A stretch of DNA of 64,000 nt from Terebella lapidaria (taxonomy: Eukaryota > Annelida > Polychaeta > Terebellida > Terebellidae). The position numbers and the translations under genes were made by a program. The DNA is taken from positions 24,176,694-24,240,693 of the forward strand of contig OX424570.1 in the NCBI GenBank assembly GCA_949152475.1. The letters are read 5' to 3'. The notes under the pieces were generated by a model. That model did no database searches and was not told where the DNA came from. It saw only the letters and a list, made by a program, of their open reading frames with translations. Shown here one piece after another: positions 1 through 59,243 of this stretch (positions are counted from its first letter, which is position 1; each line of letters starts with the position of its first letter).

Positions 1-263
1 CAGTATCCTGTGCCCAGTTGGATCAGAGATCAGGATCCTAGAGGGATACAGTGTAGCGAACACAACCGAAGAACCATTGGTTAATTTCCTGGACACTGAC
101 TGTGTCACACCACTAGATAATACAAGAATGAAAACTGCGAGAGACAAGTGCGAAGGCAGGATCGCGTGCACCCCACTGTCCTTGATAGCTTTAAACTTTA
201 GATGTCCTCGGACAAACATACTGTCAACACATGCGGTGCTGATTTACATATGTACAAAGAACG
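1..263 (+). CDS. SUEL-R1 exon, domain A (partial)
   Basis: Reads from base 2 in frame (starting S-I-L-C-P-V-G-S) and ends in phase 1 at a GTATGT donor. By comparison with the 312-nt homologous exons of R2 and R3, about 49 nt are missing at the left edge. The domain carries six cysteines in the complete copies. Confidence 0.85.
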
Positions 264-6011: not shown

Positions 6012-6140
6012 TATTCAGAAATATGCATAACAACAAAATGTCCGTCTTAAATTCAATGGTGTAGTGATTTGTGTTCGGCTAGGTTTAGTACACGTTTATT
6101 AAAACGTTATATGTGGTTACCCGATGTTTTTTGGTCACTA

Positions 6141-8190: not shown

Positions 8191-8199
8191 CGTAAAAAT

Positions 8200-9349: not shown

Positions 9350-9830
9350 ATCTCAATCGACTCCCTCACAATTGTTTCCTTCATTCAACTACACAATATG
9401 TGAAAAACCGTACCAGTGGCCATTTCAAACACATACTTCACAGCATATTATTACGTTGAGGCACACGTGCCTTAGATAAATCTGGCTTACAATTAAGCAT
9501 AGATGGGCAAAGTTTTGCCATTTGTTGACCAACGCCCAAGGAAATACGTCCTCGAGACAGGAGAAGGGGATGTTTGCTGCCCCAGGTACACTGTCCCGTC
9601 TGTGTTTGTCTCAATTGAACAGAGCTAGATCAAACACAGAGCGAGCAGCCCAAGCTGACCAAGAATCAATGAGTTGTCATGATCGATGTATTCGTCAGTC
9701 GCAATCTACACAGTTGTGCTGTGAGAGGCCCAGTGTTGTGAGGCAGGGCTCATGGTCAGATCCAGAATTACATGGACTTTGAGACAGAGGGTAGTAAGAC
9801 AAAGGCGAGGACAGTGCTACAAGCATCAGT
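9350..9830 (+). promoter_or_regulatory. Upstream region of PAN-CTL1, duplicated at 40.06-40.49 kb
   Basis: From about 9350 the sequence aligns with 40060 onward (shared CAATATGTGAAAAACC and GTTGAGGCACACG). This marks the left edge of the segmental duplication and the likely promoter and 5' UTR. No clear TATA box was seen. Confidence 0.45.
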
Positions 9831-10128
9831 ATGTGGATTCATTACTTCATTCATTTTCTCATCGGTGTTGGATGTGTAGCCAGTGTTAGGATTTATTGCA
9901 GGAAACAGACGTTTTTCATCGTTGATGGCTACACTTCGCCAGGTGAAGTTATACAGATTGAAAATGACATTACACTTCCTCAATGTCAGAGGATATGTCG
10001 CCAATATTATGAATGTGAGTCATTCAACATGCATTGGTCGGACATATCCCAGACCAGTGGCAATTGTACGTTGCTAAGCAACTGCACGAGGCTGGGACAT
10101 ACTGTGCAAGCAGACCACAGCACACATT
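9831..10128 (+). CDS. PAN-CTL1 exon 1: signal peptide and PAN/Apple domain
   Basis: The ATG at 9831 is the one that yields a hydrophobic leader. Donor CATT|GTAAGT, phase 1 out. Confidence 0.87.
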
Positions 10129-12977: not shown

Positions 12978-12982
12978 AATAT

Positions 12983-13300
12983 CACTGTGGCGGAGCTTGC
13001 CCATGCGTGAGGAGAATTTTACCGGAAATTGCCCTTGATTCTCCCCGGGATGCCCGCGATTCTTTCCGGTGGTACACAGCACGCTGGTTTATAGGCATGG
13101 TAAATATGTATTTCTCATTCATTATTTCAATTTGGTAGATGCATTGAAACAACCATTTACCTGTGAACATTGACAAATTTATTCTGATGCAGATGCACTG
13201 TGCAGTGCCTGTTTTCCATTTTTATCAAAAGCCCATGATTTTTACCTGGGTGTCCAGGATTTTTACCGGCGTTTTGAACAGGGCCCATGATTCATTCCGG
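12983..13300 (+). repeat. Left terminal inverted repeat region of the CACTG element
   Basis: The first 90 bp pair with 16300-16396. Further inside, degenerate copies of CCATGATTTTTACC/CCAGGATTTTTACC pair with 15880-15960. Confidence 0.65.
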
Positions 13301-17472: not shown

Positions 17473-17483
17473 TCACATTTTTC
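17473..17483 (-). CDS. SUEL-R2 terminal coding exon (G-K-M-stop)
   Basis: Acceptor TGTTTCAG, then GA AAA ATG TGA. The same acceptor and near-immediate stop occur in R3 at 45392-45402, which supports a real short terminus. Confidence 0.5.
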
Positions 17484-20400
17484 CTGAAACACAATAGACA
17501 TCCAATTGTATATTGAACTACAGAAAACAATAGGATTCATACACCATGGGTATATATGTAACATTGCTTTTACATCCACGAAATATGTACCAGTGACTGT
17601 TTACCTCTGATGAAAGCAATAACCGGGACAAGTGGTACAATGTTCATCCCTTGAAGATAAATAATAGGTCCATCATCAAATCATTGATATTACATATTTT
17701 CGATACTGAAACCATCAATAATAAATATATTATCAACATTGGAATCACTGGTAATTAATAAGTTACATATCGACTGTACCTATTGATCATATAGAAAACA
17801 CCATTGCACTACACGGAACGCTCTGTGGTCATTTCGCAGATGAGGAAGCTTTTTTGAATTCTGTATTAATTCATTTCAAATAGTTTGTCAATGAATGTTG
17901 ACTAACTCACCTGTGGCCTGTGAACCGCTGGGCAACGAACTCCCGTTTCCAGTCACCTCCTCTATACCAGACGTTGTGGAGGTCCCATCATGTCTGGGAT
18001 GTGTGGTTGATGTCACTAGATCTGAAACAGGACAGGTTTCGGAGTAGAGTGTATTGCAGTTTCTCGTAAGGTATCTTAATATGAACACCATATAGACCAT
18101 CTTTTATTTGTTCTGTGGGCGTGAGAACTGTTCATTATGCATTGAAATTAAACACATATTCAAATCATATACCACTTTCTTACTGTTTACTACTCATATA
18201 ACAATAGTGTCTGTAGCATAGCAATACTATATGGCTATATGGGTAACAATAACATAATTACGTAATGCTGGTAGACAATTGTAATAGACACGGAGGTACT
18301 TAGCCTCGACCAGTGATCCATCTCCACACTGGACAATTCCAGGTGACACCACAAGATCCTGACATGCTCGTCTATCCTGGCATGCCTCTAGTATGTCCAC
18401 GTATCTCGTACTAGAATATACTAGGTTGGTCTCGCAAAGTACATCAGATGGTGTATCTTCGGGCAGCAAACGACAAAATGCTGTTGATGTTGTATTGCGT
18501 TGAACTGTGTAGCTTGCAGAGAGGATCTTGATGATGTTGCCTTCAGAGCACGAGATGTTCAAGGTTTCATTCACACATGTCGTTGTCCTGTGTCGAACTG
18601 CGTTGTAGGTAAAGCATACTTGATGAGCAAATTTGTTGAACAAACATGCACCAGTCGTTTTGTTTCACTAATAAGTTGTGACGATGAGATGACAGAGTAT
18701 TAGCTTTTATAATTACTGTGGCTTCACAAGCATTTTGTTTTGTTTTTAAATGAAAAATATTATTTTTTCTTAAATGCAAAGTATTCTGAATAATACTCAT
18801 TCATCTGTAACCCTTTTAAGTTAATGGGTTTAGGTTTTGGGATTGTATTATAGGCATATAAGCAGTTACATCATTGGGAATTTCTCATGACCTTGAATTT
18901 GACATTCAGTGAATTTGACACATTGCGGCAATTTTACTGGAAACTTCTCAGTTTGACACAGTACATTATTTTCGGTAACCGTCCTTAGCCCTCGATCTAA
19001 TTTCTACACATCCAATAAACATGAACAAATAATATGCATATAATACACATATGAAAATATGTTCGAAAATGAAATATCAAATACATGTTGTTCAAATATC
19101 ATATTGAATATCATTTGATCAAAATGGAGTACTCATATAAAGTGATTGAATACAGTATAAAATTATAAATGATTCGCAAGGAATATTACAAAGTTGTAAA
19201 AGAATTAGCCCAAGGGTTAAGAAAGGTTGTCGAACAATGTTTCTTTTTAGATATTAGCGTTTTGTCCCATGACCTTGAATATAATGTCATTGATCAATTC
19301 AAGGTCACGAGAACATTCAGCCCATATCATTTCTAGCATGTCCACAATTGATTCCTAAGCTGTAAAGTCAACAATGAGTGAGATATCAGCCAATTTTGTG
19401 ATCCGACCTTGAAAATGAGGTCAAAGGTTAAGTTCAAGGTCATGAGAATATTCAGCATATGTCATTTCCAATATGTTCGCAATTGATTCCTAAGCTGTAA
19501 AGTGGATAATAGGGGAGAGATTATCTCCCCTATTATATTTATATAAAATATATAAATATTTTATATATTTCTAAAATATTTTCATAGGTTGTTGGGCAGT
19601 TGTATACTAATTCCATCTGGTGTACAGTAGAAACAACTACATTCAACACACTGTCTGCCCCTGATGACGCCAGTGTGGCTTTGGATAAACTATTTGGTCG
19701 GGCTTTGTTTCTATTGCAAAAAGTCAACAATGAGTGAGATATCAGCCAATTTTGTGATCTGACCTTGAAAATGAGGTCAAAGGTTAAGTTCAAGGTCATG
19801 AGAATATTCAGCATATGTCATTTCCAATATGTTCGCAATTGATTCCTATGCTGTAAAGTGGATAATAGGGGAGAGATTATCTCCCCTATTATATTTATAT
19901 AAAATATATAAATATTTTATATATTTCTAAAATATTTTCATAGGTTGTTGGGCAGTTGTATACTAATTCCATCAGGTGTACAGTAGAAACAACTACATTC
20001 AACACACTGTCTGCCCCTGATGACGCCAGTGTGGCTTTGGATAAACTATTTGTTCGGGCTTTGTTTCTATTGCAAAATGTTGTATTTTACGTTTGTTATT
20101 GGCATCATCAAAATCTACTGTATTTGTGGTAATAGATTGATACCTACATTAACCTTTTTTGTTCTCTGACCTTGAAAATGAAGGCAAGGTCAAATTCAAT
20201 GTCTCCAAGATATTTAGCATATATAATTCCCAATAAGTTCACCATGGATTCCTAAGCTGCAAAGTCAATAATAAGCGAGACATTACCCATTTTGTTCTTT
20301 GACCTTGAAAATGAGGTCGAAGGTCAACTCAAGGTCACCAACATATTCAGCATATATCATTTCCTATGTTCACAATTGATTCCTAAGCTGTAAAGCCAAT

Positions 20401-23400
20401 AATAAGCAAGATATTAGCCATTATGTGCTGTGACCTTGAAATTGAAATTAGGTCAAAGGTTAGGTCATTAGGTCATTTCCTATATCTCTACAATTGATTC
20501 CTAGTCTCCAATATGAATATTAAGTGAGATTTCAGGAACAAATATTTCCCATTATAAAGCATAGGAGAATTTAACATGTGAAAGTGTCATTCGGGACCTG
20601 TCAAAATATTAAAATGGCTGCCACAGGCAGATCGGCAATTCAATGGCAAGAAACTTATACACATCACAGAGGTATATGAGGGGAATCTTTTGAAACAAAA
20701 ATCTCAATCTGATCTGACAGTTTTTGAGAACACGAACACCGAAGTCCAAATTGGCTCTTTTTCGTCAAAAATGGCCACCATTTTGAAAGAATTGCGAATA
20801 TAAAAAAAAACGTCCGGACTCTCATCAACTAAAGAATATACCACCCTCTCAAAATATTTTTAGACATTTTTTGTGCAAAACTTCAAAAAGATAAACCTTA
20901 AAGATAAAAATGTAGATGGACAATGACGGACGACGGACGCAACACCATGGCAATAGGCTATCGGACCAAAGGTCCGGTAACCTAAAAATGTCCTATTTGA
21001 GCCACCATACATATATATATCAATAGTTAATTTCATTCGGAAGTTGCATACCAGTCTCACAATAATACACGACCATCAGGTAGAGGTTAGCTTCATACAC
21101 GATGCACCACACGTTTGGTCAATGGCTCTGCGCGGTACAAACCGGCAACTCTCAGCTCCCCTGTCACACCGAGGGAAAGGTTGACCAAACACAGAGTCAT
21201 ACGTCAGCACACAATCTTCGATTTGATAGGCCATGCGAGGATCACAGGTTCGGCTAATGTTGAACCCGAAGTAGGCTTCAGAGAAGACGACCTGGTTGTC
21301 CGGACAACTGATTGTTTGAATTGAGTCCTGAATGCAGCTTTCACTGACAAGTTCTGCAATGGCAAATGTAGACTTGTTATTTACCGCAAGAATGTAGATC
21401 GATCAGGTATGTCTGTCTGTTTGTTCGTTGGAACTCTGTAGGCCTCAGTTCTGAACGGATCGCCTACTAATTTTGTGAGCCGATCTTCAAGCTAAGTGCT
21501 TCAAACTATATGCGTTCTTTGTGTATATATACTCAAGGCCTATGTTCCATGTCTTTGACCGTGACCTTTGGATATGACCTAACGGCTCTAGTTCAAAGTT
21601 TCATGAAAAAAGTGATGTTATCCAACTTTCGGTTTGATATGATGTGGGACTGGCCTTGAGATCTATTCAGTCTGAGTCTACTTATGACCGTTTCCATAGC
21701 GAAAAATATCCTAAGCAAAATTGCTCATTTTAAGGTATCGATGTGGATATCAGCATGAATAATGGACATGTAAATCTGTTAGTGGACACTGTTAGAAGCA
21801 CAAGAAAGAGCATAGGTTCACAAATTATCAAGGCCAGAACCTTTAAATGCAAATCCCGTAATTAGATGTACCTCACATTTTAAAGAAGATAAAAACATGA
21901 AAGTAAAAACAAAATGTTGTTTTGACATATTCTAACAACTTCTAATTTTTAAACACCTAGAATAAAGAGCAACTTTTATACACCTAGAGCCCATCAGCTA
22001 TATATTTTCTAAGCCCCTAAGGATGACCTTTTCCGACAAAATATTGAGTAGCAACTTGTTAGAAATGAATCGAAGATTTCTCTCCTGTACCTATTTCCAT
22101 AATCCATCTTCATTTGACGTCATCATGGCGTCAAATGTTATCATAGACTTATATTCAGGTTTATTTTGTCACAACTGCTCAATTAAATTGTGCATTGTAA
22201 ATATGGTGCTGGAATATCATATTGGGATATTTAACTCAGGAACCTATGTCCTTGTCTTTCATATTGTAGATGTGCATAGCATACAAAATATCAGCATTGT
22301 GATAAATTGTAACAATGATACGCCATATACTGGCACTTACATAGAATTGGCAGGGAAAGGGATATCAGATCTACTCAAAAGGGCAAATTAAGATTGTATC
22401 GTAAATATGCTGAGAAATAAATTCGATAGAACATAAGATTACACCTGATGATAATAACCCTGCTTATGAAGTTTTTGAAATCTGCATCATATTTATTGTT
22501 GTGAAATATGCCATAATCGAATAAACATAATCCACCATAAATAACACCAACCTTTGTCATTCATTGGACAAGAATACATCAGCACCACATGTGTTGATGG
22601 TATATTGTTTCGAGGACATCTAACACTTAAAGCTGTCAGGGACAGGGAGGTACAGGCGATCCTGCCATCACAACGCACTCTCGCTGTACGTATTCTTGTA
22701 TTATCTAGTGGTCTGACACAGTCAGTGTCCTGGAAGTCTTCTATGGGTTCATCAGTCGTGTTCGCTACACTGTATCCCTCTAGGATCTGTATCTCTGATC
22801 CAACTGGACACAGGACGCTGTCTATTGCAGTATTCACCGTGAATCGGGATGATCTGGTCACATCTATAAAGTGCACATAAGGAGGAATAATGAATATAAT
22901 AATTTTTTATAAGCATTTTACATCAATGAATAATATATAATAGCTAAACATAACCATTTTTTATTGTGAAAAAAGAACGCGTCCTTACATCACCATAAAT
23001 AACGATTCGAGGTAATCGTTCCATATTGACGAGTCATAAAATTACGATATTGACCGATCGTGACGTCACATTCATTCATGGCCATATCACAAACAAGTCT
23101 GTTGTTTGACATTACCGTGATCAGAAGTCAGAGGCTGTCAGAATGACATACGACATCAAACAACAGGTGCTAAAACATTGTTTTTTTGTGTTTGATCAAT
23201 TTCATACTTTTTGGCATTTCTATTCGTAGTCTGATTAACACTCGACATGACAGAGATAATCGTTTCACAACAATGAGCTATGACTTTGGCTTGAGTATGG
23301 ACATTTTCCATAGAGAAAACACCAAAGAATGAATGCATTATTTGACCGAAAAAGTCTTGATGAGCATTTAGAAAAACATGTCTGACACATTTTACAGCAG

Positions 23401-26400
23401 TTTTATGTCAAAACACATAACAAGAGGGGAGAACAAAGAAACACCATGACTTCTATCAAGCATGGCCTGAATAGACATTTGCAGAGCACTGTGATTGATG
23501 GAGAAATCGACATCCTCAAGGGAGCAGAATTCAAGAACTCCACGAAAACAGCCAAAGCGATGACAAAGGAACTAGAAAAGCTCAAGCGAAGTATCATAGA
23601 GCAGAAGAGCTTTATTTCAGAGAGCAATCAGAGGCAGAGTAAAGGAAGGTTTTCGTGACTTCAGGAAGACTGATTTTAAATTCTGGAAGACGCAGAAGGT
23701 GTCCAGTATATTGAAATGGTCTGGGACGAGCAGACAAAACAAAAACCAGATAGACGATGACGAAAGGGTGAAAAGAAGTCTGTATGGAGTAAAGGGTACA
23801 GAAAAAAAATTCGGTATATTTGTTGTTCTGGCGACATTCATCATACGTCAGTATCTTTTTGAGTGTTTCGTTTAAAGAGGTGCCAGTTATGCCTGTCAGT
23901 ATAGGCATATGCCTGTCAGTATAGGCATTTTGTTGTACTACTGTTGTATTACATTGCGTCAAGAACACAAGGAAGGGCATGTAATTACTCGATTGTAGGT
24001 TACCCTATTAAAGTGCCCCGCTGTCTCTCCTTCGAGAAGTATATGTCGAAGCTGAACCTAGGCCGTGAGCTACTGCAACTCGCCGCTCGGACACAAAACA
24101 CTGGGGAAGATGCTCGCCACAGGATTGAGCACAAGGTACACAAATCGTTACCTCCAACCACAGCCGTGCACATCCTTGACAGTGCCCAGTCCTTGACAGC
24201 CAGGCACATTATGACAGTCACTGGGTACAAGTCGGAGCAGTCACTCAAAACATACAGTTTTGCACGATGACAACACGAGGGAAGGCATGTTCCAAACTCT
24301 CAGTGGAAAGTGTGGAATACAACCACAGGAGGTAGCAATCCGCAGATTGGTTGACACTCCACCAACAAGACCAACCTGGCAGTGATTGGCGCGACAGAAA
24401 CCTGGATCGATGACTCGGTGTCCTATGCAGAGATCGAAATCCCAGGTTTCCTCGTTGTTCGCCACGATCGGAATCGCGAAGGTGGGGGAGCGTGTATGTA
24501 CGCCAACAGCAACATTGCTTTAACCAACGCCAAGATGTTGAAGGTGATCTCGAGTCAGTGTGGATAGAGCTGTGTTGGCCCAAGACCAAGCCGATCCTAG
24601 TAGGTGGGTGCTACAGACCGCACAAACAGACTGATTTTTTCACAATATTTGGACAATCTCTATCAACTATTGAGTCGTTTAAATAACAGGAATGTATATT
24701 TCTTTATGATTTCAAAGTTGATTGTATGTAAACAAGAGTTCTGTATAAATCTCTCACTGAATGCATGTCATCCTTTAACTTGGAACGATTAATTAATGTC
24801 TTTACCCGTATCACCAAAGGTACCTCTACTATATCAGACCTTATTCTTGTATCAGATCCGGACAAAGTATATGAATCTGGTGTCCTAAACTACTGTGTTA
24901 GTGATCACTTGTTAATATATTGTACTAGAATATGTAAAAAATTCCAATTAGTTATCATCATACTGTCACATCAATATCATCCAAAAATTACTCCAAAGAA
25001 AACTTTGAGGATATGCTCAACAATGTTGATTGGAACTCTGTGTATGAATGCGAAGATGTAAACACCGCTTGGTCTTATTTTAAATGTGAATTTCTGGGTA
25101 TAATCAATGACATCTCTCCTATCAGATCAATTCGTGTTAAACAACGAACAGCTCCTTGGATGACTGGTGAACTGATAGAACTGATCAGAGAACGTGACAA
25201 AATGTTTCGTACGTTTAAAGCCACTAAATATCAAATGTATTATGATCCCTGTGTTTTGATAAATCTAAGGTCTCAGACTGCTTCATTAATTTTTTTACTA
25301 TTGTTGTCACTAAACTAGTTGAGAAACTTCCATCAAGTATCGGCGAATATGGTCAAAATCATTTGTTTGATTTTTATCGGTCCAAAAATGTACTAAGTGG
25401 CTCTTTCTGTCTCTCAGATGTATCTGCAGAACAGGTACATAAGATCCTGAGTAACCTTGACATGGGGATGGTTCTGCTGAACCGCCAAAAAGCCTTTGAT
25501 ACAGTGGATCATGACATACTGTTGATGAAGCTTGAGGCTGTGAGGCTCCATCAGAAGTCTTTGGACTGGTTTAAGTCCTACCTCAGCAAACGCCATCAGA
25601 TGGTGGAAATAGTGGGTACTCTGTCTGACCCAGCAAACATTTCATGCGGAGTACCTAAAGGGTCAATATTGGGCCCTTTACTTTTTCTGATCTATGTCAA
25701 TGACATTACCTCATCTGTAGGTTGTAAATTGCACCTGTATACCGATGACTCTGCTCTTATTGTGGACGGAAAGAGTTCCGATGTGATTCAACATGGACTT
25801 TCTGAGGAATTGGAATCAATCAGAGAATGGCTGATTGATAATAAACTGTCATCCCATTTAGGCAAAACCGAGCCTATCCTCTTTACTTCGAAGAGAAAAC
25901 TCAGCAAAGCAAAATCCATTAAGGTGCTCTGTGAAGGTAAGGAACTGACCTGTTGTACACAAGTCAAGTACCTGGACCTTACTTTAGACCAGTCTCTGGA
26001 TGGAGAGGGCATAGTGGACAAGATATTAAAGAAGTCCAAAGCCAGACTACTAAGTTTCTCTATCGGCAAGCTAACTCTGTTAGCAGAGAAACTAAGAAAT
26101 TGCTAGTATCGGCCCTAATTCAATGTCACTATGACTACGCATGTACGTCATGGTACTCTGGGTTGACTAGGAAGTGCAAACAGCGCTTACAAGTCTCCCA
26201 GAGTAAACTAATGCGTTTCATATAAGGTGCACCGGCCAGAACCCACATAGGGGCGGATGAATTCAAGCAGGTAATTATGTTGCCAGTAACACCCAATATG
26301 TTGAGTGTAACACCCAACTCAAGCTGAATCTAGTTTTCAAAATTCTCCATGATACAGCCCCAAAATTTCTTTCAGACCAATTCAGCTTGCTTCAAAATTC

Positions 26401-32400: not shown

Positions 32401-35400
32401 ACACTGGGGAAGATGCTCGCCACAGGATTGAGCACAAGGTACACAAATCGTTACCTTCAACCACAGCCGTGCACATCCTTGACAGTGCCCAGTCCTTGAC
32501 AGCCAGGCACATTATGACAGTCACTGGGTATAAGTCGGAGCAGTCACTCAAAACATACAGTTTTGCACGATGACAACACAAGGGAAGGCATGTTCAGTGG
32601 AAAGTGTGGAATACAACCACAGGAGGTAGCAATCCGCAGATTGGTTGACACTCCACCAACAAGACCAACCTGGCAGTGATTGGCGTGACAGAAACCTGGA
32701 TCGAAACCTCGGTGTCCTATGCAAAGATCGAAATCCCAGGTTTCCTCGTTGTTCGCCACGATCGGAATCGCGAAGGTGGGGGAGCGTGTATGTACGCCAA
32801 CAGCAACATTGCTTTAACCAACGCCAAGATATTGAAGGTGATCTCGAGTCAGTGTGGATAGAGCTGTGTTGGCCCAAGACCAAGCCGATCCTAGTAGGTG
32901 GGTGCTACAGACCGCACAAACAGACTGATTTTTTCACAATATTTGGACAATCTCTATCAACTATTGAGTCGTTTAAATAACAGGAATGTATATTTTTTTA
33001 TGATTTCAAAGTTGATTGTATGTAAACAAGACCAGAGTTCTGTATAAATCTCTCACTGAATGCATGTCATCCTTTAACTTGGAACGATTAATTAATGTCT
33101 TTACCCGTATCACCAAAGGTACCTCTACTATATCAGACCTTATTCTTGTATCAGATCCGGACAAAGTATATGAATCTGGTGTCCTAAACTCCTGTGTTAG
33201 TGATCACTTGTTAATATATTGTACTAGAATATGTAAAAAATTCCAATTAGTTATCATCATACTGTCACATCAATATCATCCAAAAATTACTCCAAAGAAA
33301 ACTTTGAGGATATGCTCAACAATGTTGATTGGAACTCTGTGTATGAATGCGAAGATGTAAACACCGCTTGGTCTTATTTTAAATGTGAATTTCTGGGTAT
33401 AATCAATGACATCTCTCCTATCAGATCAATTCGTGTTAAACAACGAACAGCTCCTTGGATGACTGGTGAACTGATAGAACTGATCAGAGAACGTGACAAA
33501 ATGTTTCGTACGTTTAAAGCCACTAAATATCAAATGTATTATGATCCCTGTGTTTTGATAAATCTAAGGTTTCAGACTGCTTCATTAATTTTTTTACTAT
33601 TGTTGTCACTAAACTATTTGAGAAACTTCCATCAAGTATCGGCGAATATGGTCAAAATCATTTGTTTGATTTTTATCGGTCCAAAAATGTACTAAGTGGC
33701 TCTTTCTGTCTCTCAGATGTATCTGCAGAACAGGTACATAAGATCCTGAGTAACCTTGACATGGGGATGGTTCTGCTGAACCACCAAAAAGCCTTTGATA
33801 CAGTGGATCGTGACATACTGTTGATGAAGCCTGAGGCTGTGGGGCTCCATCAGAAGTCTTTGGACTGGTTTAAGTCCTACCTCAGCAACCGCCATCAGAT
33901 GGTGGAAATAGTGGGTACTCTGTCTGACCCAGCAAACATTTCATGCGGAGTACCTAAAGGGTCAATATTGGGCCCTTTACTTTTTCTGATCTATGTCAAT
34001 GACATTACCTCATCTGTAGGTTGTAAATTGCACCTGTATGCCGATGACTCTGCTCTTATTGTGGCCGGAAAGAGTTCCGATGTGATTCAACATGGACTTT
34101 CTGAGGAATTGGAATCAATCAGGGAATGGCTGATTGATAATAAACTGTCATCCCATTTAGGCAAAACCGAGCCTATCCTCTTTGCTTCGAAGAGAAAACT
34201 CAGCAAAGCAAAATCCATTAAGGTACTCTGTGAAGGTAAGGAACTGACCTGTTGTACACAAGTCAACCTGTTGTACACAAGTCAAGTACCTTGACCTTAC
34301 TTTAGACCAGTCTCTGGATGGAGAGGGCATAGTGGACAAGATATTAAAAAAGTCCAAAGCCAGACTACTACGTTTCTCTATCGGCAAGCTAACTCTGTTA
34401 GCAGAGAAACTAAGAAATTGCTAGTATCGGCCCTAATTCAATGTCACTATGACTACGCATGTACGTCATGGTACTCTGGGTTGACTAGGAAGTGCAAACA
34501 GCGCTTACAAGTCTCCCAGAGTAAACTAATGCGTTTCATATAAGGTGCACCGGCCAGAACCCACATAGGGGCGGATGAATTCAAGCAGGTAATTATGTTG
34601 CCAGTAACACCCAATATGTTGAGTGTAACACCCAACTCAAGCTGAATCTAGTTTTCAAAATTCTCCATGATACAGCCCCAAAATTTCTTTCAGACCAATT
34701 CAGCTTGCTTCAAAATTCTCACTCTATAAACACCAGGTCAAGTGCTACTGCTCTGAAAAATACCTCACACTGGTCCTTTTGGTGCTACATCATTCATGTA
34801 TAATGGTATTAAGGCTTGGAATATATTTCCAAGCCATATCCAGTCAAAAAACAATCTAGTCAATTTTGAGAAAACTGTTAAGTAACATCTTTTTAGTCAA
34901 ATTGTAAACCAGGAATCCAACACTTATTTATTTTCAATTTTTTTTTCTGGTTGCCCCTTTTGGCATATATGTAGTTTAAATGTAATCTTATATATCATTG
35001 TCTATTTATAAAATAGTAAATGTATTATACAATATATTTTCCATACACCTATTTACCAGTTTACATAAGTATTCACATAATTATACTGTACTATGAGGGT
35101 CATGTGATATTTTCTAGGACCACATTGGAAATAAGTGTTTTCACTTTCATGTGTTATCCTTGTTTTTAATGTCTTCCTTATACATGTATTTCTGTTATAC
35201 GTTTTACATTATTTACCAAATAAAATCACTATCATACTGCCACTATCATACTGTTTCTTACTAAGCAATGTTAAACTTGTTAAATTCATCGTTTTCATAT
35301 GTCATTTTCCGACCTATTTCTCTGTCTACAAAATACACTCACAACAGGGCGAGCGAGAGGACTATGCTGTACAGCAAATGGCTAGTGAACCCAGTAAAAC

Positions 35401-38400
35401 TCACAGGTGATATGCACTCGGGTGCACCGAGGTGTTTGGGATTATCAGTGTTCAGCTCATTGTATTCATCTCACAGAAAGTATAGCCCTAGATATTCTCA
35501 TTATTTTGACGACAACAAGGAATAAATATATGCAACAGCCAGTGCTTGTCAAGCAGAACACTCGAATCTTCGTTTTGGTCAAACGTATAAAATGATTTAT
35601 CTAATCATCAAATTGCACAGCTTTCCTGATATCGTTTATGAAACCATGTTTCGGTTCATCATCCATAAGTATATGTGTGTGTGCTAGCCAAGTTTTAGGT
35701 CAGGGGATTGTATTGTTTTTGGTGATTTTGTTACCTTTACTTTCACATTATAAGTCAATGGAAAAGTTCCTCAGTGCAGTCACCGGTAAGTTACGTGCAA
35801 TCACACCTAAAATATCACCTAATATTATACTTTGGGTTGTTAGTGTACCGAGTTCTGATTGCTGATTGGACAAGAACACATACCGCGACCACTTTGCCAA
35901 GTGATAGTGGTCTCTGACGCTACTCTCCACCCGAATAAAAGCAATATAGGGTCCCACATGGCTTTGTTATGTTAAAGAAATTTCGCTTTGTAACATGCCG
36001 AAAGTCAGACGACGATAACAACAGGAGAGGCTGCACGTTAGCAAATCTGCTATTTGGCAATTCCGACAATAAAAAAAATGTTTATACAAAAAAAGAACAA
36101 AACTTGTCATTGCTCAAGATATGAATGAAAAGTATAATATAATAGTTATGAGTAGCTGGTTCGCTCACTGTGAGATTTGATGGGGTTCAGCCAGCAGACA
36201 TTGGGTTCGGGTTACGGTCTCACCCACTACGAGCTGACTTCACCCCTACGGGTCGTGGACCTATTACCGAGCTGTACCTATCAACGAGCATCACGGAAGC
36301 ACGATGTGTTGAAGATGTGTTTGTGTTGTGACGTTTTTGAATAGCAACGGGTCACCGCATTGTTTCGTAACGAAAATATTTTTGTCCTATTTTTCGCCAG
36401 TGACAGAACTACACTGTGTACATTATTGAGAAAATCGTACCTGGAAACAACATTGAGTGGCCTGTGCAACAATAAATATATCTGAAACACCATCGGGGGG
36501 TTGTGTTACTGCATCTCTGTATTTCGGTGGGTAGACGTGATCAAAGGTGTAAACTCAAACAAATGAACTCCAGTATGTTTACCGTAACGAAGGATAGGCT
36601 TTGTTATTCATATTTCTCATGAACGATCATTACGTAATAAAACAGGAATAGCGAACACCCGAAAAAAAAACACATGGGGAGCCAAAAAAAGTTGAACGAT
36701 TAATAATAGCCTACCAAAGATGCAAATTGTGCAATATTTCACATAATATATGATATTAATAGTTCTAAAACATCATTAAAAGTACCTTTTTATTATGATC
36801 ACCGATATGTATCGAGACATACTGCTACATGTCTACTGGCATATTTATGGACTACATTCACCACATGTATCAGATATATCGATTAGCATACCACATTGCT
36901 CATATAATATAAATGTCCATGTGTCGAAGTTTAAAACCATGGCAGAGCTGATCATGTTCACCGTGTGCACGATGAACAAAAGCCGACACAGGCAGTAGAA
37001 GTCCTTCACATAGGGGTGAAGATCTGTGCCACTGCCAGATATTAAGTTTGGAGTAGGGGCTAGTGCTACCACGATTTCTGGTCACCTACCTGGAAGGCCA
37101 CTATTTTTTTCATCTTGTGTGTAGACTATGAATAATATGGTTTGAACAATCTGCAAATTCGCCAACACCTTTCATTCCCTCTAATATTTATTCATATGAG
37201 CACGGGATGACAATTTGCTGTTATATAAAAACAGAGTGACAGTATTCAGAAATGGTCCCGCACGAATTTTCACTGACGATGAAGAGTTGAACCTGGTTGA
37301 CTATATTTTAATTCCTGCAAATGGAGGAAGTTGCCGCCAACCAAAGCACTCATCAGGGACACCATCCAAGACATCGTGAGGAAAAGTGGGCGAGCTTCCA
37401 CTGTGAATATGTCCGAGGGACCCAGTCACTAGTTCTGTACTAGTGTAACACGATAAATGTGTCGATTTCTTCAGCCACAAATCAGTGTAAACATTCTCGG
37501 TATTGTGTTTTTTTCACGTTGAAGGGTTCCTATTTCCTGCAATCCACCCGCATTCCGTCTGCATTTTCTCTATAATATATCTCTTGTACTCGAAGACCCA
37601 GTTTGTATTTATTGCCTGAAATAATACATTTCATACGCCTGTTTTGAAAATGGCTTATCCTGAACAATAAATATAAGTTTCTCTTAGAACATTACAGTCA
37701 TGTACATTTCTTTGTAATTTTATTCTATTGCAAATCAATACACGTGCACAAACTCTACATAATAATCAACAAAACTTCACAAACAACATATCGACCAAAT
37801 TATATATGTGTACTAGCGTACAGCGCTGCTTCATGACTGATTTCATTTAGTGCTCGGTAATAGGTACACTCCGCACGATCACGGCACCTTCGAGATATGA
37901 AAACTAATGGCCCATGTGAAGTTCTCGTCGGGGGGGGGGGGGGGTCTTGATTTGAACATTACCACCTACACGCGTATCTACTTCGACAGAATTTCCAAAT
38001 ACACTTTTTGGGTATCTGCGGCCGTTCAACTGAGCGTAATTGTTGATATACTACTAAAGGTGCTCGATAATAGGTCCATGACCTGTATAAATCTCATAGT
38101 CGGCTCACCAACTACCCATAACTATATAATATTGGTTTAAATTCATAATTTACCCTTGCGGTAAATGTTATTGTAATTCACTTGACGAGTTGATCATGTT
38201 GATTGAGTTAACATAGATTACAGTAACTAACGCATGTTTTGTCTATCTCTTTTATGTATTACAGTCTGTAGAGTAGAAACTTGCTTACCATAACTGTTGC
38301 TTGGGCATAAGTACTGCAGAATCACGTAAGATGTGTTTCCCCTTCCCGTGCAAGGTGCAATGTTCAATCTATTTCTTATTTCATTGCAACCGATCTGTCC

Positions 38401-39313
38401 ATTGCAATGACCCTGAATGTACTTCGCGTCTCGTTCATTCGCGACGTGGGCACATGCTTCGTCGTGTGGAAGGCAAGGCTCAGCACCTTCCGGGGACACC
38501 GCAGTGTAGAGTTCGTAGGTTTCAATCTGTGTTCCCACTGGACAGAGGACTTTGTGAAAATAGTCGTCTCTTGGGAGACAGAAATGCTTCAGTTTCTTCT
38601 CTGAAAATCAAAGACGATATTCTTTCGCCTATTTATTATTCCCTACCACATACAATTCAATCGTTCCACTACATTTATTCATCGAAAATACCATTATGAG
38701 GTAGGCCTAATGTATTTGTATCCATCCATCAGTTTTAAATGTTTGAATACTCTAATAATAATATAGTATGAAATATTATGTTTTTCGCCATTAAATTTAC
38801 CTTCAGGACTGACACACATATATTCCATTGTCACATAGTGTGTGTATATTTGAACATCTCCGCACATGGCTGGAAAGTCAACAACTGTGAAATCCGCACA
38901 TGCTGACTTATACTCGCATGAGGTGACAACCTCATTGTAGTTTTTCATGAATGATGTGGCGCTTATTTCCATTGTACAGTCGGTAATGTTGGCCGTACAC
39001 TGTTCAGGATCCTGACTCACACCAGCGTACACCCGAGCAATACGGACCACTTGATCCAGCGGGCAGAGAAACCGATCAAAGCTCTCCCCGTTACATCGTG
39101 TGATGCTCTTCAGTTCTGTTCAAATGTTTTGGTATGGTCAGGGTTGGATTCTAATTCAGTCTACCATATGTACTTCAAGTAAAACAACAAGTATACAGTA
39201 TGGCATGTTGTACTGCACAATAATGATGTTCCTAGATTGTTCAACTTACCTTCAGATTTTGCTACAAAACCAAAAATTATTAGTTTGATGCAGAATATAA
39301 TTAATTTATCCAT
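17473..39313 (-). CDS. SUEL-R2: five-domain SUEL-like lectin protein, tailless, probably decaying
   Basis: Nine minus-strand exons, 5' to 3': 39250-39313 (signal peptide), 38801-39115 (X), 38289-38600 (Y), 22552-22863 (A), 21052-21353 (B), 18262-18597 (C), 17911-18021 (stalk), 17605-17649 (hydrophobic) and 17473-17483 (G-K-M-stop). All internal exons start and end in phase 1. Exon B is 1 nt short relative to R1 and R3, and the hydrophobic exon is 15 nt shorter than in R3. Read through, exon B breaks the frame. Skipping it restores an in-frame product of about 501 residues, because its neighbours are phase-matched. Intron Y-A is about 15.4 kb and full of transposons. The role, if expressed, is extracellular carbohydrate recognition. 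A decaying gene, a splice variant or an assembly error are all possible. Confidence 0.68.
17605..17649 (-). CDS. SUEL-R2 exon, shortened hydrophobic segment
   Basis: Acceptor TTCAAG, donor AGAG|GTAAAC. Encodes M-N-I-V-P-L-V-P-V-I-A-F-I-R, too short for an ordinary membrane span. Identified by alignment to the 60-nt R3 exon. Confidence 0.6.
17911..18021 (-). CDS. SUEL-R2 exon, Ser/Thr stalk
   Basis: Acceptor GTTTCAG, donor ACAG|GTGAGT, phase 1-1. Ser/Thr/Gly-rich and cysteine-free. R3 has the matching exon at 45891-45998. Confidence 0.75.
18262..18597 (-). CDS. SUEL-R2 exon, domain C
   Basis: Acceptor CAACGCAG, donor TTAC|GTAATT, 336 nt, phase 1-1. T-T-C-V-N-E-T-L-N-I-S-C at the start and Y-Y-N-C at the end. 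Eight cysteines, frame open. Confidence 0.86.
19203..20983. repeat. GGTTACCGGACC-family repeat with GACCTTGA array, in R2 intron B-C
   Basis: One terminus is AATTAGCCCAAGGG at 19203; the other is GGACCAAAGGTCCGGTAACC ending at 20983. Between them lie several roughly 134-bp units with TGACCTTGAAAATGAGGTCA cores, plus the CCATTTTGAA region. Confidence 0.75.
19365..20076. repeat. 356-bp direct tandem duplication inside the array
   Basis: The segment starting AAGTCAACAATGAGTGAG at 19365 recurs at 19721 nearly unchanged. Each copy holds an 11-bp-stem hairpin, AATAGGGGAGA-GATTA-TCTCCCCTATT, and an AT-rich TATAAATATTTTATATA stretch. Confidence 0.75.
21052..21353 (-). pseudogene. SUEL-R2 exon, domain B with a 1-nt deletion
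   Basis: Acceptor ATTGCAG and donor ACTG|GTATGC are intact. The sequence follows domain B of R3 closely up to the seventh cysteine (T-C-G-A). There one nucleotide is missing near 21105 relative to R3, and the frame runs into a TGA. Beyond it the other frame resumes the conserved N-L-Y-L-M-V-V-Y-Y-C-E-T. A sequencing or assembly error cannot be excluded. Confidence 0.75.
22552..22863 (-). CDS. SUEL-R2 exon, domain A
   Basis: Acceptor TTTATAG, donor AAAG|GTTGGT, 312 nt, phase 1-1. Core C-P-V-G-S-E-I-Q-I-L-E-G-Y-S-V-A-N-T-T. Six cysteines, so one disulfide of the eight-cysteine module is absent in this domain type in all paralogs. Confidence 0.87.
23092..24270 (+). mobile_element. Crypton-like tyrosine-recombinase fragment, copy 1
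   Basis: Open part 23446-23658 encodes S-I-K-H-G-L-N-R-H-L, D-I-L-K-G-A-E-F-K-N-S and A-M-T-K-E-L-E-K, the N-terminal DUF3504-type region shared by Cryptons and ZMYM/QRICH1-like host genes. A second open part, about 24013-24270, ends A-R-H-I-M-T-V-T-G-Y-K-S-E-Q-S-L-K-T-Y-S-F, the C-terminal recombinase motif with its tyrosine nucleophile. The parts lie in different frames with a gap and the same break is in copy 2, so the element was dead before the block duplicated. Confidence 0.65.
24271..26937 (+). mobile_element. LINE (CR1/L2-like), copy 1, degenerate
   Basis: An endonuclease fragment near 24382-24690 shows V-I-G-A-T-E-T-W-I-D, G-G-G-A-C-M-Y-A-N and V-G-G-C-Y-R-P-H-K. A reverse transcriptase follows at 25363-26106 with Q-K-A-F-D-T-V-D-H-D, C-G-V-P-K-G-S-I-L-G-P-L and Y-T-D-D. 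The fragments are in several frames. The 3' end is an AAATAAAATC repeat at about 26908-26930. The catalytic YADD of copy 2 is YTDD here. Confidence 0.78.
26938..28975. other. Segment present only in block copy 1
   Basis: Lies between the LINE tail and the TGTTTCTTACTAAGC segment; copy 2 joins these directly at about 35250. Contains three 20-bp repeats of GAATCTCTGTTAAATGTTTT (about 27217-27275) and the repeat at 27632-28672. No gene recognised. Confidence 0.65.
27632..28672 (+). repeat. ACCCTCGCCCC-ended repeat, copy 1
   Basis: Starts ACCTCGCCCCGACAGGGGG and ends with the inverse GGGGCGAGGGTCTG, giving terminal inverted repeats of about 11 bp. Internally about 300-bp subunits share GTCGAAAAATTGGGGGTCACG and the GTTGCCATG-CAACGGAAAA stretch. 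The reverse-orientation relative is 46157-49004. Confidence 0.65.
28976..29868. repeat. Shared 3' segment of block copy 1
   Basis: Nearly identical to 35250-36138, beginning CTGTTTCTTACTAAGC. No coding family recognised in the short open frames it contains. Confidence 0.65.
29869..30446. other. GC-rich spacer between the block copies, with internal repeats
   Basis: Starts TGTAACGGGGTTTCC near 29873, ends CTTGTCTCCC, and contains repeats of about 112 bp around CACCTGAAATG and GAAGCGTCTCCGCCTC. Its composition is unlike its surroundings. It might be an LTR-derived fossil, but no partner or coding part is visible. Confidence 0.35.
30447..32574 (+). mobile_element. Crypton-like fragment, copy 2, split by an insertion
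   Basis: The same N-terminal region (30801-31013) and C-terminal tyrosine region (about 32316-32573) as copy 1, separated here by the TTAA-flanked element. Confidence 0.65.
31231..32225. mobile_element. 995-bp non-autonomous DNA element with TTAA target duplication
   Basis: TTAA occurs on both sides (31227-31230 and 32226-32229). Block copy 1 keeps the uninterrupted site at 23872-23875. Long divergent inverted repeats lie inside: CAAATGTAACTTAC near 31433 pairs with GTAAGTTACATTTG near 32010, and GAATTTTGGTATG/GGCCG near the left end pairs with the right end. TTAA duplication is the mark of piggyBac-type transposition. No transposase is encoded. Confidence 0.8.
32575..35240 (+). mobile_element. 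LINE (CR1/L2-like), copy 2, degenerate
   Basis: Endonuclease pieces at 32676-32980 and reverse transcriptase at 33662-34294 with C-G-V-P-K-G-S-I-L-G-P-L and an intact L-Y-A-D-D-S-A. The 19-nt internal repeat near 34249 shifts the frame after the reverse-transcriptase core. Confidence 0.78.
36139..38288. other. R2 intron sequence, unassigned
   Basis: Includes a somewhat GC-richer stretch at 36150-36500 with an AATAAA near 36470, a poly-G run near 37930-37945, and otherwise AT-rich sequence. No exon fitting the phase-1 pattern was found. Confidence 0.45.
38289..38600 (-). CDS. SUEL-R2 exon, domain Y
   Basis: Acceptor ATTTTCAG, donor TATG|GTAAGC, 312 nt, phase 1-1. Eight cysteines. Core C-P-V-G-T-Q-I-E-T-Y-E-L-Y and end L-Q-Y-L-C-P-S-N. 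Confidence 0.87.
38801..39115 (-). CDS. SUEL-R2 exon, domain X
   Basis: Acceptor GAACAG, donor GAAG|GTAAAT, 315 nt, phase 1-1. Eight cysteines. Begins E-L-K-S-I-T-R-C-N-G-E and ends Y-M-C-V-S-P-E, a complete SUEL-like module. Confidence 0.87.
39250..39313 (-). CDS. SUEL-R2 exon 1: signal peptide
   Basis: ATG at 39311-39313 gives M-D-K-L-I-I-F-C-I-K-L-I-I-F-G-F-V-A-K-S-E, a typical leader, with donor GAAG|GTAAGT in phase 1. The R3 exon 1 at 59180-59243 is its clear homolog. Confidence 0.82.
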
Positions 39314-40488: not shown

Positions 40489-40786
40489 ATGGAATCTGAC
40501 ACAGGGGGCAATAAGACTGATGGTGTCGGGTGTGTAGCCACTGTGAGGATTTATTGCAGGAAACAGACGTTTTTCATCGTTGATGGCTACACTTCACCTG
40601 GTGAAGTTATACAGATTGAAAATGACATTGCACTTTCTCAATGTCAGAGGATATGTCGCCAATATTATGAATGTAAATCATTCAACATGCACTGGTCGGA
40701 CATATCCCAGACTAGAGGCAATTGTACGTTGCTTAGCAACTGCACGAGGCTGGGACATACTATACAAGCAGACCACAACACACACT
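40489..40786 (+). CDS. PAN-CTL2 exon 1: PAN/Apple domain, leader missing
   Basis: Start chosen as the nearest in-frame ATG; it may not be used. Donor CACT|GTAAGT. The PAN cysteines are all retained. Confidence 0.65.
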
Positions 40787-45391: not shown

Positions 45392-45402
45392 TCACATTTC
45401 TC
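45392..45402 (-). CDS. SUEL-R3 terminal coding exon (G-E-M-stop)
   Basis: Acceptor GTTTCAG then GA GAA ATG TGA. The sequence aligns with the start of the R1 tail exon (AGAAATG) but is entered in another phase and stops at once. Confidence 0.5.
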
Positions 45403-57400: not shown

Positions 57401-59243
57401 TTTAATACTAAATACGGAGTAGCAGTGACCATGGTGATGTAGAACAGTTACACAAGTTAGTGTTGGTTACTCAAATTGGCAAATTATGAGATTTCCAACA
57501 AAGTATTGTATTGCAAATACCGGTATGCTGAGAAACAGAATTCACTGAATCATCACCACCTGGTAGTAAACACCCTGATCATAAAGCTGAAACTCAAGAG
57601 AGAACTTTTCCAAACTTTTACCAAAAACTCAAATGAATATAATGAACAATAAATATCACCAACCCGCGGTTTTCTTTGCACAGGTATAAATCAGCACCAC
57701 ATGCGTTGACGGTGTGACAACGTCAGGACATCTGACGTTTGGAGCTGTCAAAGACAGGGAGGTACAGGCGATTCTGCCAGCGCACCGCCGTCTCGCTTTA
57801 TTCATTCTTATACTACCTAGCGGTCCGACACAGTCAGTGTCCAGGAAGTTGTCTATTGGTTCCGCAGTCGTGTTCGCCACACTGTATCCCTCTAGGATCT
57901 GTACCTCTGATCCAATAGGGCACATGGCGCTGTCCATAGCAGTGTTCACTGGGGATCGGACTGATCTGGTTACATCTGCATAGCACAGTCATGATGGGAA
58001 TAAATAATCAGTGTGTCCATATTCAGATGTGGATCACACCTGCATAGTACATAAATGCATATGACTTACTATTCATCCTGTCCTGGTTAATAAAATATCT
58101 ATGTTCAAATCTCACTGTAATACGCATATATCGTGTCAAACGTGCTGACCGTGTACACATTGATCTCAGTAGCATGACAGTATATATTATCATACCATAA
58201 CTGTTGCTTGGGCATGAGTACTGCAGAATCACGTAGTGTCTGCTCCCAGGTCCTCTGCAAGGTGCAACACTTAGTCTATTTCTGAAAACATCGCAAGTAA
58301 TTTGCCCATTGCAACGCCTCTTTATGAAGTTCGCGTTTTGATCATTTGTGACGTGCGCGCATGCTCCGCCGTGCAGTAGACATGGCTCAGCACCTTCCGG
58401 GGACACCGCAGTGTAAAGTTCGTAGGTTTCTATCTGTGTTCCAACTGGACAGAGGACTTTGTGAAAATAGTCGTCTCTTGGAAGACAGAAATGCTTCAGC
58501 TTCCCTGAAAACAAAAGACAATACACTTCTGCTACTTCTTTATCTTCTACGAAATATAATCCAAACTAATGTTCCAACTGGATTAATTAATCTCGGATAA
58601 TGTTATCATGTAAGCCTATTATATTAGTTCTAGCAATCAGCTTCAAATGTTTTGAATACACCAATATGAAATAGTATTGGTGAATGCCAGCGAGTTTACC
58701 TTCAGGACTGACACAGATATAGTCCATGGTCACATAATGTGTTTGTAGGTGAATACGTCCGCAAATGGCTTGAAGTCTGGTGATTCTGAACTCTGCACAT
58801 GCCGACTTGTTCTCGCATGAGGTGACAATTTCATCGTATTTGCTTGGGTAGTTTCGGAATATATCTACTATACAGTCCGCACGGCTGGATGTACATTGGT
58901 CAGCTTCTAGACTCACACCAGCATAGACCCAGGCAATACGGACCACTTGATCCAGCGGGCAGAGAAACCGATCAAAGCTCTCCCCGTTACATCGTGTGAT
59001 GCTCTTCCGTTCTGTTCAAAATTTTCAATAATTTGTTCGAGAAAATTGTTTATAATCATTGTTTTGCAAAACATTAGAAAAAGTGAGTTTTACAATTCAA
59101 AAGACCATATTTGGCCAAACACCAATTGTATTATCCATGAAAATGCATATTTTGAATGTACGTCATTTGTTGAACCTACCTTCAGATTTGACAACAAAAG
59201 CATATATTGATAGTTTGATGCAGAATAAAATTAATCTATCCAT
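45392..59243 (-). CDS. SUEL-R3: complete five-domain SUEL-like lectin, tailless or GPI-anchored
   Basis: Nine exons on the minus strand: 59180-59243 (signal peptide), 58700-59011 (X), 58196-58504 (Y), 57664-57975 (A), 53111-53416 (B), 52561-52896 (C), 45891-45998 (stalk), 45516-45575 (hydrophobic) and 45392-45402 (G-E-M-stop). They total 1818 nt and 605 residues without a frame break. Domains X, Y, B and C each have eight cysteines and A has six. The C-terminus is a stalk, R-M-K, then about 17 hydrophobic residues with one Asp and three last residues. That could be a GPI-attachment signal or a tailless span. By family the domains bind galactose or rhamnose-type sugars. Introns C-stalk and A-B are swollen by repeats. 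Confidence 0.82.
45516..45575 (-). CDS. SUEL-R3 exon, C-terminal hydrophobic segment
   Basis: Acceptor CTCAAG, donor CTAG|GTTAGT. Encodes M-K-V-V-P-V-V-L-V-I-V-A-V-V-I-D-L-V-L, the counterpart of the R1 transmembrane exon but phase 1 out rather than 2. Confidence 0.7.
45891..45998 (-). CDS. SUEL-R3 exon, Ser/Thr stalk
   Basis: Acceptor GTTTCAG, donor ACAA|GTTAGT, 108 nt, phase 1-1. Ser/Thr-rich, with one Cys near the end (L-P-T-C-S-P-A-T). Confidence 0.72.
47059..47254. mobile_element. 196-bp CACTG MITE, first copy
   Basis: Starts CACTGGGTGGGAGCTTGCC and ends with the inverse of CACTGAGTGGGAGCTTGCCC; nearly the whole element is inverted repeat. Ends resemble the 3.4-kb element at 12983. Related units without the insert (48565-48590) read straight through TGTAAATTTCAG. 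Confidence 0.75.
48034..48229. mobile_element. 196-bp CACTG MITE, second copy
   Basis: Copied passively with the 975-bp unit rather than by a second insertion, since flanks and body match the first copy. Confidence 0.75.
49094..52354. repeat. Long GACCTTGA/AGGTCA array, more than twenty 134-bp units
   Basis: Starts AATTAGCCCAAGGGC and ends GGTCCGGTAACC, with a second internal start at about 50576, so two elements are fused. Each 134-bp unit has TGACCTTGA, AGGTCAAAGGTCA and TCAAGGTCA, then TCATTTCCTATATGTCCACA and GATATTAGCCATTTTGT. In R3 intron C-stalk. Confidence 0.85.
52366..52533. repeat. Terminal fragment of the GGTTACCGGACC family
   Basis: Repeats the last 170 bp of the preceding element and again ends GGACCAAAGGTCCGGTAACC, 27 bp from the domain C splice donor. 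Confidence 0.7.
52561..52896 (-). CDS. SUEL-R3 exon, domain C
   Basis: Acceptor AATTCAG, donor CTGG|GTATGT, 336 nt, eight cysteines. The 3' splice flank abuts a repeat fragment ending at 52533. Confidence 0.88.
53111..53416 (-). CDS. SUEL-R3 exon, domain B
   Basis: Acceptor TTTGCAG, donor ACAG|GTATGA, 306 nt, frame intact, unlike R2. Core F-S-E-A-Y-F-G-F-D-T-S-R-S-C. Confidence 0.88.
53640..56924. repeat. GGTTACCGGACC-family element, reverse orientation, split by a LINE
   Basis: Begins GGCTACCGGACGTATGGTCC, has a (TCG)n/(TCCG)n microsatellite at 53690-53725, array units on both sides of the LINE, and ends in the inverse of TTAGCCCAATGG near 56924. Confidence 0.72.
54265..56321 (-). mobile_element. 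5'-truncated LINE with RNase H (I/Nimb/Ingi-like)
   Basis: Flanked by an exact 13-bp target duplication, TCATATATGCTGA, at 54252-54264 and 56322-56334. Minus-strand order: reverse transcriptase (E-G-V-P-Q-G-S-I-L and Y-V-D-D-F), the region after it, then RNase H with C-T-D-G-S, Y-T-A-E-L-K-A, C-S-D-S-L-S-A-L and G-N-E-H-A-D-K-A-A. Coding is broken into three or more frames. The 3' tail at the left is (GAA)-like. Insertion into the array element dates it as younger than that element. Confidence 0.85.
57664..57975 (-). CDS. SUEL-R3 exon, domain A
   Basis: Acceptor ATGCAG, donor GCGG|GTTGGT, 312 nt, identical in length to the R2 exon. Core C-P-I-G-S-E-V-Q-I-L-E-G-Y-S-V-A-N-T-T. Confidence 0.88.
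58196..58504 (-). CDS. SUEL-R3 exon, domain Y
   Basis: Acceptor GTTTTCAG, donor TATG|GTATGA, 309 nt, phase 1-1, eight cysteines, end L-Q-Y-S-C-P-S-N. Confidence 0.88.
58700..59011 (-). CDS. SUEL-R3 exon, domain X
   Basis: Acceptor GAACAG, donor GAAG|GTAAAC, phase 1-1, eight cysteines. The core L-C-P-L-D-Q-V-V-R-I-A and end Y-I-C-V-S-P-E match R2. Confidence 0.88.
59180..59243 (-). CDS. SUEL-R3 exon 1: signal peptide
   Basis: ATG at 59241-59243 gives M-D-R-L-I-L-F-C-I-K-L-S-I-Y-A-F-V-V-K-S-E with donor GAAG|GTAGGT, phase 1. Too short to show up as a long open frame; identified by homology with 39250-39313. Confidence 0.83.

Follow-up and report, generated by a model that had tools for sequence, protein, structure and literature searches.

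A tailed lectin-type receptor gene and its likely maintained tailless sister in a gene cluster of the annelid Terebella lapidaria

A 64,000-nucleotide stretch of the Terebella lapidaria genome (contig OX424570.1, positions 24,176,694 to 24,240,693; hereafter the window) carries three linked paralogous genes, R1, R2 and R3, of which R1 encodes a transmembrane (TM) helix with a long cytoplasmic tail, while R2 and R3 end almost directly after their hydrophobic segments. R1 and R3 are likely a lectin-type receptor and its maintained tailless sister. We put at about even the chances that our favoured reading holds as a whole, namely that R1–R3 form a cluster of lectin-type receptors, that the tail was lost in the ancestor of R2 and R3, and that R3 has been kept as a tailless receptor, most likely one anchored by glycosylphosphatidylinositol (GPI). 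One tailed and two tailless paralogs had been proposed in a preliminary description of the window, and the rebuilt gene models bear this arrangement out.

All three models were reconstructed exon by exon with GT-AG introns, and the genome searched comprised 761.6 Mb in 438 contigs. The genes share a common plan, consisting of a signal exon, five cysteine-rich domains (D1–D5) of about 300 nt that each occupy a single exon, a stalk and a membrane exon. R1, on the + strand, extends from −1453, before the window start, to 3079, and has two tail exons after the TM exon, at 2397–2515 and 2658–3079, the second of which encodes a C-terminal YTVV...NPRY module. Its tail, first estimated at about 180 residues, comes to 181 in the rebuilt model. 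The acceptor of the last R1 exon was picked by phase from the sequence: a candidate at 2641 broke the frame and was rejected, and that at 2657/2658 keeps it. R3, on the − strand from 59243 to 45392, has an intact frame of 605 amino acids that begins with MDRLILFCIKLSIYAFVVKSE, hydrophobic as judged by eye only, and ends with ...MKVVPVVLVIVAVVIDLVLGEM; all nine of its exons keep their frame and their GT-AG sites. The final exons of R2 (−, 39313..17473) translate as ...MNIVPLVPVIAFIRGKM. The terminal exon contributes 11 coding nucleotides in both R2 (17473–17483) and R3 (45392–45402), closing the proteins with G-K-M and G-E-M, respectively.

The membrane exon is 76 nt long in R1 (2015–2090; exon model and hydropathy), 45 nt in R2 (17605–17649) and 60 nt in R3 (45516–45575; tblastn, exon model and hydropathy). 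All three are entered in phase 1, and they are left in phases 2, 1 and 1, the R1 exit leading into a basic stop-transfer cluster. The earlier proposal that the R2 and R3 terminal exon is entered in a different phase through a shift at the TM-exon donor is thereby confirmed. A genome search with the R1 ectodomain returned at least 35 exon matches, a lower bound like the other counts from this search, with 15 in R1–R3 and 20 on C17 (1.18–1.19 Mb), C8, C12 and C4. The 3′ ends inspected as paralogous outgroups were those of one C8 copy, one distal C17 copy and two C12 copies, with the other C8 copy (20617196–20618077) and two C4 matches excluded. A long tail frame was found at all four, and the three junctions read (C8, distal C17 and the first C12 copy) agree with R1 in a phase-2 exit from the TM exon and in basic residues on both sides of the junction. 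Because R1 and all three outgroup junctions are in phase 2, and all four outgroup 3′ ends are long-tailed, the phase-1 taillessness of the R2/R3 line is derived.

The terminal exon of R2 and R3 had been described as aligning with the start of the first R1 tail exon, and this claim has moderate support. The identities (23 of 42 bases for R1–R3, 22 of 42 for R1–R2) lie well above the mean of 13.0 for 4,231 loosely pyrimidine-filtered AG sites in the 104-kb context, of which four reach at least 23 (R1 itself, R3 and two others) and six reach 22. In the ancestral phase, by our own reading, the exon begins with R-N-V in R3 and K-N-V in R2, as against R-N-A in R1. Several observations weigh on the other side: the match is modest and involves few bases, plain blastn of the R1 3′ part (stalk, TM and tail) against R2 and R3 gives no match, and a multiple alignment of the whole 3′ region places the R2/R3 terminal exon against an R1 intron instead. 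Since R2 and R3 are not independent and the splice-acceptor consensus contributes to the match, the aligned bases provide moderate evidence for homology of the terminal exon. In that ancestral phase it closes after about 21 codons (own reading), and tail queries from R1 and C8 gave three matches each at E ≤ 10, none of them near R2 or R3; the tail has thus been lost both by frame and by missing sequence. A second copy of R1 tail exon 1 was not found in the genome search. No basic residue is left after the hydrophobic segment of R3, and R2 still has R and K among its last residues. The idea that the R2/R3 3′ module came from another place in the genome was considered and rejected, as 46 of 47 matches are to a dispersed repeat (query 751–963) and the other is the query's own place, in a search that scored the best 40 of 1,377 candidates and was of limited sensitivity, R2 itself (69% identical) not being returned.

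R3 is maintained by purifying selection. Over 501 codons aligned in all three genes, the ratio of nonsynonymous to synonymous divergence (dN/dS) is 0.52 on the R3 branch (95% confidence interval 0.35–0.83), 0.40 on that of R1 and 0.36 on that of R2; the R3 value reaches 1 in 9 of 2000 bootstraps, and none of 2000 neutral simulations of the R3 frame, at a dS of 0.205 and without indels, remained free of stops. Ectodomain dN is 0.21–0.22 in every pair. The measurement covers the ectodomain and leaves out the C-terminus, which tells against extending the result to the tailless end.

As assembled, R2 encodes no intact receptor, and its earlier casting as a working tailless partner, in which a frameshift in D4 was overlooked, must be given up. 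The R2 D4 exon (21052–21353, −; open frames, tblastn and exon model) has 302 nt, compared with 306 nt in R1 and R3. The difference is made up of three bases in frame at the exon start and a net loss of one base, after which the shifted frame runs to an early stop (...TCGASCMKLTST*). The D5 exon is open in its own frame, as are the stalk and membrane exons by our reading. Skipping of the D4 exon would keep the neighbouring frames joined, but nothing was found in its favour. In the assembly, what had been taken for two tailless receptors consists of an intact gene and another that carries one lesion. Selection on R2 shows no relaxation, so the frameshift probably arose recently, is polymorphic or stems from an assembly error; with this frameshift, R2 is probably a recent pseudogene.

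We propose that R1–R3 represent a small cluster of single-pass cell-surface lectin-type receptors, the ancestral form of which, retained by R1, would have combined a long tail bearing tyrosines with a TM helix that ends at a basic stop-transfer cluster. The donor region of the TM exon may have lost bases in the ancestor shared by R2 and R3, with a net change from phase 2 to phase 1; the following exon would then be read out of frame to a stop after a few codons, and the tail exons beyond it would disappear. R3 would then have been retained by selection as a tailless receptor, and R2 retained for most of its history before being broken by the D4 frameshift. Most likely, the R3 ectodomain would be held on the outer membrane leaflet by a GPI anchor, with the truncated TM segment as GPI signal, and, lacking a tail, it could share its class of ligand with R1 and act as a decoy, co-receptor or adhesion form. 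In this scheme we infer the single common event, the GPI anchor over a tailless TM segment, the sharing of ligand and signalling through the R1 tail.

GPI anchoring of R3, which had been raised for its C-terminus in the preliminary description, is plausible from the residues present. In PMC7125958, the GPI signal is given as about 20–30 residues, with small residues at ω and ω+2, about 10 hydrophilic residues and about 20 hydrophobic ones. In R3 the hydrophobic C-terminal segment stops three residues before the C-terminus, with no basic residue after it, and this side of the proposal stands; the ω site itself is weaker. A scan for sites 15–32 residues from the end and without proline at ω+1 gave one site in R3 (T-C-S, with T at ω and S at ω+2, 28 residues from the end) and eight candidates in R2; used here uncalibrated against controls, the rule is probably permissive where a stalk is rich in Ser/Thr, and a site that passes it is weak evidence. 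Further points against a GPI anchor are that the sole R3 site passing this simple rule is Thr, a less usual ω residue, that R and K directly precede the hydrophobic stretch and D lies within it, and that the length of the segment would suffice for a membrane span. Moreover, horse CEACAMs whose TM exon carries a stop were classed as TM proteins, with no sign of GPI linkage. The same observations lend some substance to an alternative that we hold to be possible, if clearly short of probable, in which R3 is a tailless single-pass TM receptor with only G-E-M outside the membrane, acting as a silent decoy or pairing through its Asp (VVID-LVL) with a basic partner chain. The mean hydropathy of the best 19-residue window (2.78 for R3, compared with 3.61 for the R1 TM segment and 1.35 for R2) would allow such a span, the charged residue stands where R1 has Ala (own reading), and the short-tailed horse CEACAMs, documented with TM-exon stops and predicted to be TM, provide a precedent. 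R1 and the three outgroup junctions read, however, retain basic residues after the segment whereas R3 has none; the basic residues of R3 lie on the luminal side, contrary to the usual charge bias; and there is no known partner chain.

Two further explanations concern the status of the tailless genes as such. It is quite unlikely that R2 and R3 are both decaying, with R3 intact only as a young copy and loss of the tail as the first step of pseudogenisation. The frameshift and the 45-nt TM exon of R2, the abundance of repeats in R2 and R3 introns and the dN/dS of R3, the highest of the three, are in keeping with decay. An R3 branch ratio below 1, the failure of every neutral simulation to stay stop-free, and nine exons in frame with GT-AG sites argue against it, although a very recent switch of R3 to neutrality is possible. 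Highly improbable is the idea that R2 and R3 possess a tail after all, through missed exons or alternative splicing. The R3 terminal exon is open for about 21 codons in the ancestral phase and about 28 in another (own reading), so that a weak alternative donor could give a short tail, and a 110-codon frame (42319–42651, −), covered by the tail searches only, lies downstream of R3. Those searches, however, placed no tail copy near either gene, and going downstream from R3, the first gene that can be recognised encodes a C-type lectin and lies convergently on the + strand.

The R1 tail has six tyrosines, one YxxPhi motif (YTVV), one NPxY motif (NPRY) and two YxN motifs in a motif scan, and none of the six tyrosines lies in an immunoreceptor tyrosine-based inhibitory or activation motif (ITIM or ITAM); a Pfam scan of the TM segment and tail found no family at cut-off. 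The distal C17 tail has one ITIM-like match. The R1, C8 and distal C17 tails share a C-terminal Y-x-x-V ... N-x-x-Y arrangement, and motifs of this kind fit phosphotyrosine adaptor binding or endocytic sorting. These three tails are related by the frequency with which shuffled sequences reach their alignment scores (R1–C8 6 of 500, R1–distal C17 2 of 500, C8–distal C17 0 of 500). A point against the favoured reading is that the C12 tails cannot be aligned with those of R1, C8 or distal C17 (89, 340 and 463 of 500 shuffles as good, respectively). The description of R1 as a signalling receptor reduces to tyrosines, one YxxPhi and one NPxY, and membership in an immune paired-receptor family is not upheld. 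R1 and the tailless genes do have like ectodomains with differing 3′ parts (dN and blastn as given above), but because R1 lacks ITIM and ITAM, the term immune paired receptor is an analogy, and immune function, like GPI anchoring, can be suggested by analogy only. The two C12 paralogs (segments L046 4122–4520 and L055 942–1340) have a different tyrosine-rich tail ending in YMDM, which we take to be a p85-type motif. The last 34 residues of the C8 tail recur, in an incomplete second copy, at C8:20655518 (segment L056 2455–2622), about 30 kb downstream.

By their predicted fold, the domains of R1–R3 are of the rhamnose-binding lectin (RBL)/SUEL type, and sugar binding is putative. Of the 15 domain exons, 13 lie at least partly within the window, and 11 of these were aligned, leaving out R1 D3, which the window edge cuts, and R2 D4 with its frameshift. 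A profile of these 11 exons matched nine solved chains, all nine of the latrophilin/ADGRL type (best E 1.9e-5). Taken singly, three of the 11 domains match SUEL_Lectin in Pfam at E up to 10 (best 5.8e-5), and R1 D5 does not; R3 D3, D4 and D5 gave no Pfam family in the domain scan, and the R3 D1–D2 pair reached 13.7 bits, the cut-off being 31.4. An AlphaFold model of R1 D5 (pLDDT 86.3, pTM 0.79) found latrophilin lectin domains and the sea urchin lectin SUL-I in Foldseek at E ≤ 0.001, and CSL3 more weakly (0.015), with query TM-scores of 0.47–0.57 for the lectin matches. The root-mean-square deviations of these matches are large (5.3–7.4), which counts against the assignment.

The gene sequences also bear on whether the tailed and tailless copies have exchanged sequence. 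In the 195-base D1/D2 intron, R1 and R3 are identical at 145 of 194 sites, compared with 125 of 191 for R1–R2 and 117 of 190 for R2–R3; R1–R3 is closer than R2–R3 in 1000 of 1000 bootstraps, and informative sites are divided 40 to 16 (p 0.0018). In the module formed by the stalk, TM and terminal exons, R2 and R3 align at 523 of 774 sites, R1–R3 (348 of 765) is near the single shuffled control (372 of 817), and R1–R2 (320 of 711) exceeds its own control (209 of 663). That R1–R2 lies above the control and R1–R3 at its level marks the shuffled control as noisy. As the intron groups R1 with R3 and the 3′ module groups R2 with R3, the 5′ and 3′ parts of the genes may differ in history, which suggests recombination or conversion between the R1 and R3 lineages. 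A strong claim of exchange is weakened by the whole D1-intron-D2 block, in which no pair stands out (R1–R2 620 of 818, R1–R3 617 of 815, R2–R3 624 of 811), the closeness of R1 and R3 being limited to the intron, and rapid evolution of the R2 intron could contribute. The exons differ in their informative sites when all positions are counted (chi-square p 6e-7), whereas third codon positions by themselves give no significant difference (p 0.12); exon mosaicism is therefore no proof of conversion on its own, and a domain-by-domain mosaic was discarded as such proof. The flanks of domains 3–5 were unalignable in every pair.

The remaining exons were placed by exon models, with tblastn in addition where indicated (t). 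Upstream of the window lie the R1 signal (−1453..−1390), D1 (−1122..−808) and D2 (−612..−295) exons, and the R1 D3 exon occupies 1–263 (t), its start at −42 being outside. R1 D4 (471–776; 70 of 101 amino acids identical to R3 D4) and D5 (1078–1419; predicted structure) are of the putative RBL/SUEL type and are followed by a Ser/Thr/Pro-rich stalk exon (1625–1795), all on the + strand. On the − strand, R2 has its signal-peptide exon at 39250–39313, D1 at 38801–39115 (t), D2 at 38289–38600 (t), D3 after a 15.4-kb intron at 22552–22863, D5 at 18262–18597 (t) and the stalk at 17911–18021. R3, likewise on the − strand, has the signal-peptide exon at 59180–59243, D1 at 58700–59011 (t), D2 at 58196–58504 (t), D3 at 57664–57975 (t), the intact D4 at 53111–53416 (t), D5 at 52561–52896 (t) and the stalk at 45891–45998.

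A convergent + strand gene occurs beside R2 (9394–12988) and again beside R3 (40103–43399), with a C-type-lectin domain above the Pfam cut-off and a PAN-like domain below it; matching segments of the two copies are 74–91% identical (85% in the longest). Since each gene has such a neighbour, R2 and R3 probably arose through duplication of a block that included it. The 15.4-kb R2 D2/D3 intron contains near-identical repeat pairs (95–99%; 23092–26941/30447–35247 and 28979–29869/35251–36140) in which reverse-transcriptase-like frames were recognised by eye. The R3 intron that precedes the stalk exon has a 977-base tandem duplication of 99.8% identity (46516–48467, −) and a satellite-like array (49090–52295) with a unit of about 134 bases by self-match spacing. 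The R3 3′ region holds a dispersed repeat of some 190 bases (about 45048–45260, −), with at least 46 other matches when the best 40 of 1,377 candidates were scored. A 512-codon reverse-transcriptase-like frame, also recognised by eye, lies downstream of R1 (6562–8100, −).

Among known systems, the latrophilins (adhesion GPCRs L1–L3 and nematode LAT-1) give the best profile and fold matches and share the lectin fold, but they carry one RBL domain on a seven-TM receptor, whereas R1–R3 have five domains on a single membrane segment. The rhamnose-binding lectins SUL-I and CSL3, which also share the fold, are secreted lectins with tandem RBL domains; R1 differs in having a TM segment and tail, and its sugar binding is putative. 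EVA-1/EVA1C are single-pass receptors with two SUEL-type domains and another cytoplasmic part. The engulfment receptors CED-1, Draper and MEGF10 combine NPxY and YxxPhi-type tail motifs with an EGF-type ectodomain, and R1 (NPRY, YTVV) has only these short motifs in common with them. A literature search by titles and abstract starts found no report of a tailed/tailless pair in lectin receptors of this type. The closest precedent is that of the primate CEACAMs (CEACAM1 versus the GPI-anchored CEACAM5–8), which like R1–R3 are family duplicates of a tailed ancestor with a common ectodomain type and differing membrane modules, and in which, as in R2 and R3, the TM exon was truncated, there by a small deletion or stop. 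CEACAMs differ in their immunoglobulin domains and in tails with ITIM, ITAM or the related switch motif (ITSM), whereas R1–R3 have the predicted RBL/SUEL fold, R1 lacks both ITIM and ITAM, and a GPI anchor on R3 is putative. It is doubtful, if conceivable, that the parallel extends to a non-immunoglobulin lectin family that made tailed/tailless pairs by a CEACAM-like lesion, in which a small deletion at the TM exon is followed directly by a stop and GPI conversion, with exchange between neighbours keeping the ectodomains alike, one member signalling and its partner serving as a decoy on the outer leaflet. If R3 is GPI-anchored or otherwise a tailless partner of R1, the two would represent convergent tailed/tailless pairing in a non-immunoglobulin lectin family by a cheap molecular route like that taken in primates, and this would support a general rule that neighbouring receptor genes readily turn decoy when a membrane exon slips frame. 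R1 and R3 offer a concrete pair for testing, with clear outgroups in one genome.

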